Shown: positions 46,316 through 51,307 of the stretch, piece after piece
How the letters are laid out: every line of letters begins with the position of its first letter
Numbering within the stretch: the stretch's first letter is position 1
Source: Cucumis sativus
Taxonomy: Eukaryota; Streptophyta; Magnoliopsida; Cucurbitales; Cucurbitaceae
Direction: 5' to 3'
Length of the DNA: 64,000 nucleotides
NCBI RefSeq assembly: GCF_000004075.3
Contig: NC_026657.2
Span: 9,796,001 to 9,860,000 of the forward strand
Notes under the pieces: generated by a model
What the model was told of the DNA's origin: nothing
Databases searched by the model: none
Seen by the model: the letters and a program-made list of their open reading frames with translations, nothing else
Position numbers and translations under genes: made by a program

Positions 46316-47957
46316 TTGGGGTAATAGCGGGTTTCGATAACAATCCGCAGGCTAGAATTGCTGAGAATCAAGTAGTTGAAGGTTTAAGCCTTCGAAACAG
46401 GTATCAAAGAATTCGAAGAAAAAAAAAATATCTTCATAAGGGAGAAGAATTTGAAGCATACAGCATGAAAACGAAACGTAAGAAGAGCAAAAATTGTAGT
46501 TAAAGAAAGGGATAAACCATGGAAAGAGGAAGAAGGAGCGGGCGACAATGGCCGGAAGAGAACCGCTCCTTGAGAATAAGTTAAGAGAAACCCTAGAAAT
46601 GTAGTGAGAGTGGGAAAAGAAAACGTTATAACGGGACGGGATTTAGGAGCGATGATTGAATAATTTGGTAAGTTGGACACTGCTTACGTATTGGGCACTC
46701 CACTTTTCCTTTCCTTTAAGGCGCTCCCCCTTTTTTTTCCTTTTTTTTCCTATCCCTCGTTTAGTTTTAAATAAATGGATAAAGTCATGGTGTTGTGTTT
46801 AGCTCCCAAATCCCCTTTGCATTCTCTATTTTTCTCTTTTAGTTCTTTCAACGAAAAATTGAACTCTCTTGTCTAACATACTTACTGGATGCTAAATTAT
46901 TAATTAAATTATAAAAAATAACAAATTGTGACGTAAAACAAAATTTTCTGATTATATCAATAATAAATACTGATAGACCACATATCACTCTACCAGTAAC
47001 ATTAACATTGATACTCTACCAGTAACATTAACATTGATAAAAAAAATCCATCAGTTTTTATTATTTATAGATTAATTATTTTGTAACCAAATGTTTTATG
47101 TTTTTAAGTAGTATTTAGCTATACTTTTTAAATCCACTGAAGTGATCTCTAGCCACCAAATAATTTGGGTTGTAGTTGTTTGTTTTTCTTTTAAATCTAT
47201 TAAATAAAATAATCATATGCTTGGAATTATATATTTTCAATAGTTTAGATGACTATGTTTGTTTTTAAAAAAACAATCTAAACAAAATAAGATAGGGATT
47301 ACCCATTTAACAATACCTTAAATTTTTAGTGGGAATAAAAATAACAAAATCATATTTGATAGGAGTTCGAAATTACAATGAACAATATCAACAACATTCT
47401 CATAATATTTATGACGAGACTCTCAGTATCTTGTTGAATAATTTGTTTCAGATTAGTACCATTAAATTAACATAGTAGATGGTATTTTAGTTTATATATA
47501 TTAATTTATTTTTAAACAAATAAAATTGATAAATAAAAGAAAAACAAAGGGAAAAAATGTTATAAAAATTGATTAGGTATGAACATCCTAATTCCTAAAA
47601 TTATCGTCCATGTATGGAAACTAAAAGAGAGTAAATATAAATTCATCCGTTAGAGACGAAGTCTATAGAACTACTTCCAATTGGTTATGTGGATGTGTGG
47701 TGAAAAGTTAAATTTATCCACAAGCCAATAAGGACGAGTCGCGTAATTAGTTAAGCCTGTGATAGGGGATGGGAGTGCCCACAACACGCGACAATATGGC
47801 CTTTGGGCGCGTGCTCAAATGTGGTGAAAGTTCCAAAAATACCCCTCCAATTACATCCGCTTTTGAAATGGAAGCCATCTCAAAACACATAATTTCATTG
47901 CCGTTTACATGACCGAACGGCAAACGCTAACTTTCATTTGCCCGATTCCCGCTCCCT
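46316..47957. promoter_or_regulatory. divergent intergenic region between LRR kinase and DMC1
   Basis: The two start codons point away from each other and are 1.77 kb apart, so both promoters lie here. The 46450-46600 part is GC-richer and probably holds the kinase leader; a 98-codon minus-strand frame at 46384-46680 is Phe/Ser-rich and may be wholly or partly upstream of transcription. A 26-bp unit ACTCTACCAGTAACATTAAC... is exactly duplicated at 46987-47012 and 47013-47038. A GATAGACCACATATCACT remnant of the fold-back repeat type precedes it. Confidence 0.6.
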
Positions 47958-48082: not shown

Positions 48083-51000
48083 ATGCTTGCAACACTCAAG
48101 TGAGTTAGAGATTTGTTTACGTTATCGTTTCCCTCCGTTATGTACTAATTACTCTGCAATCTATTCGCTGCATTATCTTTCATCTTCCGTCACTGTGATG
48201 TTGCTCAGAGCGGAAGAACAAAGCCAACAGCTACAGCTTGTAGAGCGCGAAGATATTGAGGATGAAGATGATTTGTTTGAAGCGATCGATAAACGTAAGT
48301 TTCAGAGCTTTTAACTTATAATTAAGTTATTGTTTTATTGTTCAAATAGTTCCATCGACTTTGCTTGTTTCGTGAATTTTAAACGGAACTTGATTTCATG
48401 AAGCCGTGTCTTAGTGATCTGCTTGTTTTCCTTAGAGTTTGATTCGTAAAACTTCAATGCTGATCGATTTTCCTTTTCCGAAGCGAAATGAGATTACCTG
48501 TATACGCGTCATGCGATCTCATTCGATTGATTCATTTGTTAGGCAAACATATTGGCTCCGGCGATTTAATTTAGTGAACATTTCATTTTACGCTAGTCTA
48601 GCGTCCGGTTTAGCTAGTTTTAATAGCTTGTGGTCTATTTTCTCATGGCGTGTTACTCTTCGAGAGTTTTGCTAAATCGTGAAGAAATAGGCGAATTATT
48701 TTAGCTTATCAACTGACTATCATGTTGTTCCACTACATCCGAAAGAGTTCCTTGGCATTTTCTGTGCAGTAACTTCTCATGGAATTAATGCTGGAGACGT
48801 GAAGAAGCTTCAGGACGCAGGGATATACACCTGCAACGGTTTGATGATGCACACGAAGAAGGTAAAACAATTCTGACGTCAAAATCTATATATCCTGAAT
48901 TTTATATCATTGTAGTGACCAAGAACTCTGTATTTTAGCACTTGACCGGGATAAAAGGCTTATCCGAGGCGAAGGTTGATAAGATATGCGAAGCTGCCGA
49001 AAAGCTAGTGGTTAGTGATTCAGTCACCACTTCTCTATTATCCACGATGCCTATAGCGTTTAGGACGTGTCATAATGCTATGAACTTCAGCTAACAATTA
49101 TCTTTATCTGTTGCTTTTCAGAATTTTGGTTATATCACTGGAAGCGATGCTCTGCTCAAGGTAAGCTGCTTCTGTTTTTTATTAGTAACAATTGGAGCGT
49201 TCAACTAAATAGGTCCATAGTTCACCAAGTTTGCATCGTCCACCCTTTCGTTTCCCCCTACTGCAAGTTTCACGTCGGAAACAACTGTGTTCGATTTCCT
49301 TTAATTTTCTACCAGTTCCTACAAGTTCAATTTTCAGTAAACCGCTTTCCGTCATGAAATGCACTTAGTCCTTGATTTTTGTTTGTAGAGAAAGTCCGTG
49401 GTTCGCATTACCACTGGAAGCCAGGCTCTCGATGAACTCTTAGGAGGCAAGCCTGCTTCACGACGTTTTTTTTTTCACCATCTGAGACATCATAAATACT
49501 AAATTTTTATTCTGATTATTTCCTGAAGGTGGAATTGAAACTCTAGCAATCACGGAAGCTTTTGGAGAATTCAGGTAAGGATGTATGTGTAAATAGTTTC
49601 TTCAATTTTGTTAATTGAGAATCGAAGTTCTGTATTTAACTTGTAGCTACCCTCTAACTTCGTTAAACTAATACCTAGGTCCGGGAAAACGCAACTCGCG
49701 CATACTCTATGCGTCTCTACGCAGGTTTATCTACGTCTTGGGCTTCACATCTGATCTTTAAAATTGAATTCGTTTTGTGTAATGTTATACTTCGTTATAT
49801 GCGTAGTCAAAGGAAAACTAAGGGTTACCGTGTCTTTCTTTTACAACTAACAATTACCGAATGGTTCTTTCACTGCCTCAAATCTGATGAAATCTTTGCA
49901 ATTGTGCTTGGCATTTTCTTTGCAGCTTCCTACCAGCATGCGGGGAGGGAATGGAAAGGTTGCATACATTGACACTGAAGGCACTTTGTATCCTAATTTT
50001 TTAAAGCTTATTTTGTTATGTCGTGTGGTTTGGGCACGTCTATTGAACTGAAATTATTATTTTCGGAGGTGCCCCCTTTTCAGTGTCCTCTCCTTAACGA
50101 CATGCACCTTGTAGCCGACCTGATCGAATTGTGCCCATAGCTGAAAGATTTGGCATGGACCCAGGAGCTGTTCTTGACAATGTAAGCACCGTTTTTGTTT
50201 TGTGTTGTTTTGTTGTTGTTTTTTTTTTTTTTTTTTTTTGTTCCTTTTTCCAACTAGAACTACCTGTTGCAATTTTTTTATATTAATTTTCTACTGATGA
50301 AATAGATCATATATGCTCGTGCCTACACCTACGAACACCAGCATAATCTTCTGCTCGGTCTTGCTGCAAAAATGTCTGAAGAGCCATTTAAGCTTCTGGT
50401 GAGTCAGTAGGTAACCTGTAATTCAAATGCCAAAAACTATGGTGTCTAATGTTGTACATTCTATCTTCTAATTTCAGATTGTCGACTCTATCATCGCACT
50501 TTTTCGAGTGGATTTCACCGGAAGAGGAGAACTTGCAGAGCGCCAGGTTGAATCAAATATAGTTGAACTAAAAACAACGTTTTAGAATTTGATTTCCGTA
50601 GCTTAATATCCCTCATCTCCTTTGTTTCATCATTTACACAAGCTGGTTGTCACATGCAGCAAAAATTGGCACAGATGCTGTCTCGATTAACTAAAATTGC
50701 AGAAGAGTTCAATGTAGCAGTTTACATGACCAACCAAGGTAGTGATTGAACTTTATGTAAGTCGTTTCTGGTGTATCTCATTCAAAAAACACAGACAGCT
50801 CATTTTATGGTCAGAGTATCCCGACCTTCATACTTGTATTTGCTGGATTGATCGAGACTAAATTGTTTGCTATGGAGCTAAACTGGTGTTTATAATTCAG
50901 AATCTCGGTTTTACTGATAGTAATCTTACTGCCGACAACAGTCGTTGCAGACCCCGGTGGAGGAGTGTTTGTTTCAGATCCCAAAAAACCAGCAGGAGGC

Positions 51001-51307
51001 CATGTTCTTGCCCATGCCGCTACAGTTAGATTGATGTTCAGGAAAGGCAAAGGTGAACAACGGATCTGTAAGGTGTTCGATGCCCCTAATTTGCCAGAGT
51101 CCGAAGCTATATCCTTAACTCACATCACCTCACACTTGACACTTCCATTCTCAAGATTTCTTAAATCATCAAACTATGATCTAAACAGAAGTCCTGCTCT
51201 TCTCCTGCACTCATAAGAAATGCTGCACATTCTACACAAAAAATTTCCCTTAACAGCAGCACGTATTTCAGATAACACCAGGGGGCATTGCCGATGCGAA
51301 GGACTGA
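48083..51307 (+). CDS. DMC1: meiotic recombinase DMC1 (RecA/RAD51 family)
   Basis: DMC1 forms filaments on single-stranded DNA and drives interhomologue strand exchange in meiosis. Exons: 48083-48099, 48209-48294, 48770-48861, 48939-49010, 49122-49160, 49389-49446, 49529-49574, 49679-49724, 49926-49987, 50115-50181, 50306-50398, 50478-50546, 50660-50738, 50942-51108 and 51263-51307. They total 1038 nt, or 345 residues (Arabidopsis 344). An acidic N-terminus ([20 protein letters not shown]) and helix-hairpin-helix region ([14 protein letters not shown]) precede Walker A GEFRSGKT (134-141) and Walker B LLIVD (225-229). The DMC1-type end [13 protein letters not shown] is present. Intron 6 begins GC, not GT (GGAG/GCAAGC). 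The last intron begins ATATCCTT and ends AC, as in U12-type introns. The gene is tail-to-tail with the next one, 579 bp between stops. Confidence 0.95.

Follow-up and report, generated by a model that had tools for sequence, protein, structure and literature searches.

Two probable U12-type introns, one of them of the AT-AC subtype, in the DMC1 recombinase gene of cucumber

The nearest described counterpart of the intron considered here lies in a different gene: intron 4 of plant CBP20 is a U12-type intron that combines AT-AC ends with a U12-type branch point, occurs in short versions of 76-284 nt and in moss carries, according to the text of the relevant passage, an additional C in the 5' part of the branch-point region (PMC5932401). 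The last intron of cucumber DMC1, intron 14, has the same ends, a branch point of the same kind, a comparable additional C and a length of 154 nt, but whereas the CBP20 intron is present in all ten plant species compared in that account (PMC5932401), intron 14 is known here from one genome. The donor and branch signals of intron 14, and its AT-AC subtype, also resemble those of U12-type introns in Arabidopsis, where the passages on IAOD and intronIC count 269, with 26% of them AT-AC (PMC7367187). Intron 14 belongs to a class of introns already known, and as a class it is nothing new. In the literature covered by our searches, largely as listings, we saw no statement that plant DMC1 genes have U12-type introns; the word DMC1 is absent from the main texts of PMC2426677, PMC4892727 and PMC10639083, and in PMC4071758 it occurs in one reference only. 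Databases may already list an Arabidopsis counterpart of intron 14.

The last intron of DMC1

DMC1 is a meiosis-specific strand-exchange protein. Its gene lies in the window, the whole 64,000-nucleotide stretch analysed here (bases 9,796,001-9,860,000 of contig C3), in a genome of 226.6 Mb divided into 88 contigs; matches in our genome searches fell on seven contigs, C1-C7, of 22-41 Mb. Against solved structures, the predicted product matches the DMC1 structure 1v5w with an E value of 9.5e-131, residues 18-345 being aligned and the last residue included. The name is right because the best DMC1 chain scores 439.1 bits and the best RAD51 chain 379 bits, both structures being presumably of human proteins; judged by this similarity, the gene at 48083-51307 is DMC1 and encodes a predicted full-length recombinase nearer to DMC1 than to RAD51. 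Upstream of the gene, at 46988-47039, a 26-base unit, CTCTACCAGTAACATTAACATTGATA, stands twice head to tail (noted by eye). The features at issue at the 3' end of the gene are as follows.

48083..51307, + strand: DMC1 gene, coding part, with 15 exons, 14 introns and 345 codons plus stop (gene model and homology to 1v5w)
50942..51108, + strand: exon 14 (gene model, homology)
51109..51262, + strand: intron 14, AT-AC, probably U12-type, 154 nt, phase 0 (sequence, gene model, splice enumeration, motifs, pairing)
51109..51117, + strand: 5' splice site of intron 14, ATATCCTTA, one mismatch to RTATCCTTT (A at position 9)
51245..51254, + strand: branch-point region of intron 14, TTCCCTTAAC, TTCCTTRAY plus one extra C, with the branch A at 51252 or 51253
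51260..51262, + strand: 3' splice site of intron 14, CAC, with in-frame AG competitors ending at 51256, 51259 and 51271
51263..51307, + strand: exon 15, coding part, 14 codons plus stop (gene model, homology)

A sequence-only reading had proposed that DMC1 ends with a U12-type AT-AC intron, and the sequence is best read in this way; a normal C-terminus needs the removal of 51109-51262. The U12-type donor can be read directly at 51109 as part of ATATCCTTAACT, the branch-point match TTCCCTTAAC stands at 51245-51254 as had been claimed, and the intron does end in ...CAGCAC at 51262. Joining 51108 to 51263, likewise proposed there, gives GAA GCT/GTA TTT CAG in frame and completes a 345-residue DMC1 that aligns with 1v5w through the final residue, the intron standing just ahead of the last 14 codons. 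Within the branch motif the CCTTAAC core is intact and TCCTTRAY is matched with one mismatch, and the region before the intron end is 45% pyrimidine and 23% T, the lowest among the 14 DMC1 introns, so that a polypyrimidine tract is absent. The distance from the branch A to the last intron base is 10 nt (51252) or 9 nt (51253); for U12-type introns an optimum of 11-13 nt is given in a passage that states no limit (PMC3584512). U12-type introns also disfavour phase 0, as part of one survey reports (PMC7367187), and intron 14 is in phase 0. On the evidence as a whole we put the probability that intron 14 is a U12-type AT-AC intron, spliced by the minor spliceosome, at roughly 90%.

How far the protein itself dictates the splice sites was examined by enumerating splice choices of five types, with donors taken from 51050-51135, acceptors as far as 51420 and a minimum intron length of 56 nt. 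Each of the resulting 416 pairs was scored by alignment to the C-terminus of 1v5w. The AT-AC pair 51109-51262 came first of the 416 with a score of 231, followed by a GC-AG pair, 51106-51259, at 225 and an AT-AG pair, 51109-51259, at 220, while the unspliced, intron-retaining form scored 153. The earlier claim that there is no GT-AG alternative survives this enumeration, in which the best of 80 GT-AG combinations reached 180 against 231, and gene predictors limited to GT-AG introns would misplace the C-terminus of DMC1 here. The GC-AG pair is a close scorer that the sequence-only reading had not considered, and it can be set beside another apparent GC-AG intron of the same gene.

51106..51259, + strand: rival GC-AG version of intron 14, score 225 versus 231, donor GAA/GCTATA, three bases upstream
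49447..49528, + strand: intron 6, apparently GC-AG and U2-like, donor GAG/GCAAGC (gene model, motifs, pairing)

That the last intron is instead a U2-type GC-AG intron at 51106-51259 would cost little in the alignment, as this pair is in frame and changes a single residue of the protein, A331 to H, and intron 6 offers an apparent precedent within DMC1. Its donor, GAA/GCTATA, nevertheless lacks the GC-AG donor consensus that intron 6 displays (GAG/GCAAGC), and the matches to ATATCCTT and CCCTTAAC would be left unexplained; we reject it because of this poor donor and because the alanine it replaces is kept in both the DMC1 structure 1v5w and the RAD51 of the same genome, and we regard its chance of being correct as close to negligible. 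Very improbable, too, is the reading in which donor 51109 is joined to a nearby AG, at 51259 or 51271, in place of AC, either for all transcripts or beside the AC-spliced form (giving SEAHVFQ or SEAITPGG). Both ends would keep the frame, and the choice of U12-type 3' sites has been described as error-prone in part of a source that also describes AT-AG pairs as disfavoured (PMC3584512). From the branch A it is just 6-7 nt to the AG at 51259 and 18-19 nt to the one at 51271, and relative to 1v5w the first would insert one residue and the second delete three, with scores of 220 and 213. The AT-AC intron 51109-51262 therefore remains our preferred reading.

Motif matches of this kind are common enough by chance that their positions matter more than their presence. 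Combinations of donor, branch point and intron end numbered 20 and 21 on the two strands of the window, against 15-28 in six random controls, at a donor threshold of one mismatch that leaves intron 9, discussed below, outside the count. Genome-wide, the exact 12-base ATATCCTTAACT occurs at 71 sites and its reversed pattern at 86, and a near-consensus branch point with YAC follows within 500 nt at 6 of the 69 sites examined, DMC1 included. We accordingly rejected the motif pair alone as proof, given that its frequency in the window is that expected by chance and that 5 of 68 other exact 12-base sites share a branch-like match and YAC within 500 nt. For each of the two introns, 400,000 random introns were generated with its own end dinucleotides, and 35 of them matched as well as intron 14 and 30 as well as intron 9. 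These random introns were first-order, the matching thresholds had been taken from the intron in question after viewing and 14 introns had been inspected, and for the latter two reasons the fractions are better read as roughly one in a thousand. The evidence for intron 14 is the coincidence of these signals with exon ends fixed by homology, the motifs alone being insufficient. Two of the ATATCCTTAACT sites, C5:3980500 and C5:3985964, lie in opposite orientation; the bases upstream of them are the same, and a downstream match recurs at almost the same distance, which suggests an inverted repeat.

Pairing of the 14 donors and a second intron

A further candidate of the minor class, missing from the sequence-only reading, emerges when the DMC1 introns are compared with one another.

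49988..50114, + strand: intron 9, 127 nt, phase 2, GT-AG and probably U12-type, with donor GTATCCTAA preceded by an exonic T (motifs, pairing, random-intron test)
50091..50098, + strand: branch-point match of intron 9, TCCTTAAC, identical to the consensus and 16 nt from the end of the intron

Compared with RTATCCTTT, the donor of intron 14 has one mismatch and that of intron 9 two, and the remaining 12 DMC1 introns have 4-7. We predicted the pairing of each donor with the genome's own U11 and U6atac, of the branch regions with its own U12, and of the donors with the standard U1 5' end, which is present in the genome. Introns 14 and 9 are predicted to pair most strongly of the 14 DMC1 donors with U11 (-5.6 and -5.2 kcal/mol) and with U6atac (-5.4 and -4.5 kcal/mol), and most weakly with U1 (-0.5 and -1.3 kcal/mol, the other 12 ranging from -4.3 to -12.8). 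The eight donors of RAD51 pair with U1 at -4.1 to -8.4 kcal/mol, but one of them reaches -6.4 with U11 and one -5.5 with U6atac; weak U1 pairing is therefore the only clean separator, and we rejected the U11 and U6atac energies as means of classifying donors outside DMC1. The predicted U12 pairing of the branch region, at -5.3 kcal/mol for intron 14 and -7.0 for intron 9 against -3.4 to -9.7 elsewhere in DMC1, was rejected as a classifier as well, as it does not discriminate between the introns; the -7.0 of intron 9 is not centred on TCCTTAAC, which itself gives -6.7. In intron 5 (49161-49388), whose donor is U2-like, TCCTTGAT matches the U12-like branch motif perfectly at 12 nt from the intron end, a match that is probably due to chance.

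On these sequence criteria intron 9 is very probably U12-type as well, a member of the GT-AG subtype. An unlikely reading that still deserves some weight treats it as a normal U2-type intron whose donor happens to be weak, in which case DMC1 would have one U12-type intron. Such a reading draws on the GT-AG ends, on the two donor mismatches to the U12 consensus, on a distance of 17-18 nt from the branch A to the intron end, above the 11-13 nt optimum, and on intron 5, where a U2-like donor is likewise accompanied by a perfect TCCTTGAT 12 nt before the end. It sits poorly with a predicted U1 pairing of just -1.3 kcal/mol where the 12 U2-like donors have -4.3 or stronger, with U11 and U6atac pairing that is second best of the 14, with a perfect TCCTTAAC, and with the count of 30 equally good matches in 400,000 random introns. 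The last exon base of intron 9 is T, a base described in part of a survey as in excess among GT-AG U12-type introns (PMC7367187), which also speaks against a U2-type assignment. The region before the end of intron 9 is 64% pyrimidine, no lower than in several U2-like introns.

Relatives and minor-spliceosome machinery

The paralogue RAD51 of the same genome (C1:26385500-26388000) has the positions of DMC1 introns 6 and 8 in common (by eye), but its exons are unbroken at both positions of the U12-type DMC1 introns and neither intron is found there. At the protein position of DMC1 intron 6, RAD51 has a GT-AG intron. For barley DMC1, the passages describing mutations place positions 2495 and 2515 in intronic, non-coding sequence and position 2571 at codon 183 in exon 9, and the authors' in silico analysis put neither of the mutations at 2495 and 2515 in a branch point (PMC6579892). 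Barley R183 corresponds to R184 here (alignment from residue context), barley DMC1 being one residue shorter, so that a barley intron must end at most 56 bases upstream of 2571; the position of intron 9 predicts an end 32 bases upstream. The barley coordinates thus fit an intron near the position of intron 9, its type being left unaddressed. From the exon with G212 onward, barley has exons 10-14 and cucumber exons 11-15, an equal number that is compatible with conservation of intron 14 but does not prove it. Like the barley gene, wheat DMC1 has 14 exons, and 344 residues are given for its product in part of one report (PMC7021665).

Components of the minor spliceosome are recognizable in the genome, with U11 at 76.6 bits, U12 at 90.4 bits and twelve U6atac matches (best 100.7), all over the Rfam cut-offs. 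U4atac was not found among the 48 of 12,176 candidates that were scored, a result that does not show its absence, and a 25-position model of the U11-48K zinc finger gave no match in the genome. Three places encode DIM1-family proteins, and the one on C7 scores 109.2 bits as thioredoxin-like protein 4B against 46.5 bits as DIM1, so that by sequence similarity the genome has a TXNL4B/DROL1-like gene on C7. DROL1 is called the plant orthologue of TXNL4B in passages of a study that describes it as needed for AT-AC introns, with splicing defects in Arabidopsis mutants (PMC11039992).

Splicing of the two introns and DMC1 output

In intron 14, U11 would pair with ATATCCTT and U12 with CCCTTAAC, after which U6atac would replace U11 at the donor and the minor spliceosome would join 51108 to 51263. 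This route in the plant would follow the general scheme of U12-type splicing, whereas the sequence, the frame, the homology, the motif positions and the predicted pairing are what the locus itself displays. Both intron 9 and intron 14 would need removal for a 345-residue recombinase. By translation, retention of intron 9 ends the protein at residue 193, and when intron 14 is retained, 35 unrelated residues take the place of the last 14. Dependence of DMC1 on the minor spliceosome would thus involve intron 9 too, not intron 14 alone.

Intron 14 departs from the consensus in its extra branch-point C, its short branch-to-end distance and the A at donor position 9, and slow splicing is plausible because of these three departures. 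Features linked to poor splicing, on account of which the intron may be spliced slowly, are the extra C, a branch point closer to the end than the 11-13 nt optimum and the AT-AC ends; where minor sites of the two classes competed directly in human cells, those with AT-AC ends were used less than those with GT-AG ends, as part of one study reports (PMC8280824). Slow splicing of intron 14 may in turn limit DMC1. We give little weight to the bolder speculation that DMC1 output is deliberately gated by the minor spliceosome, such that two U12-type introns, one of them weak through its extra C and short spacing, would hold back the full-length recombinase, while an intron 14-retaining form with a foreign 35-residue tail could poison filaments in a similar way to a C-terminal GFP fusion of Arabidopsis DMC1. 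That fusion is described as dominant negative: among 71 wild-type plants in which it was expressed, 59 showed sterility or a strong loss of fertility (PMC9451096). Against a retained-intron product, part of a wheat report describes the Dmc1 homeologs as without splice variants, and lists predicted variants for wheat ancestors (PMC7021665).

For Arabidopsis, passages of one study give 3.5 seeds per silique in dmc1 mutants against 54.1 (PMC9451096). In the same mutant an intronless DMC1 coding sequence failed to rescue and a genomic copy did rescue, for which the authors suspect introns or splicing; sections 6 and 13 of that paper link neither the rescue failure nor the GFP effect to U12-type introns (PMC9451096). 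Arabidopsis counterparts of introns 9 and 14, if present, would be candidates behind the failure of the coding sequence to rescue. If the last and the middle DMC1 introns need the minor spliceosome, defects in DROL1 or in U11/U12 proteins could reach fertility through DMC1.
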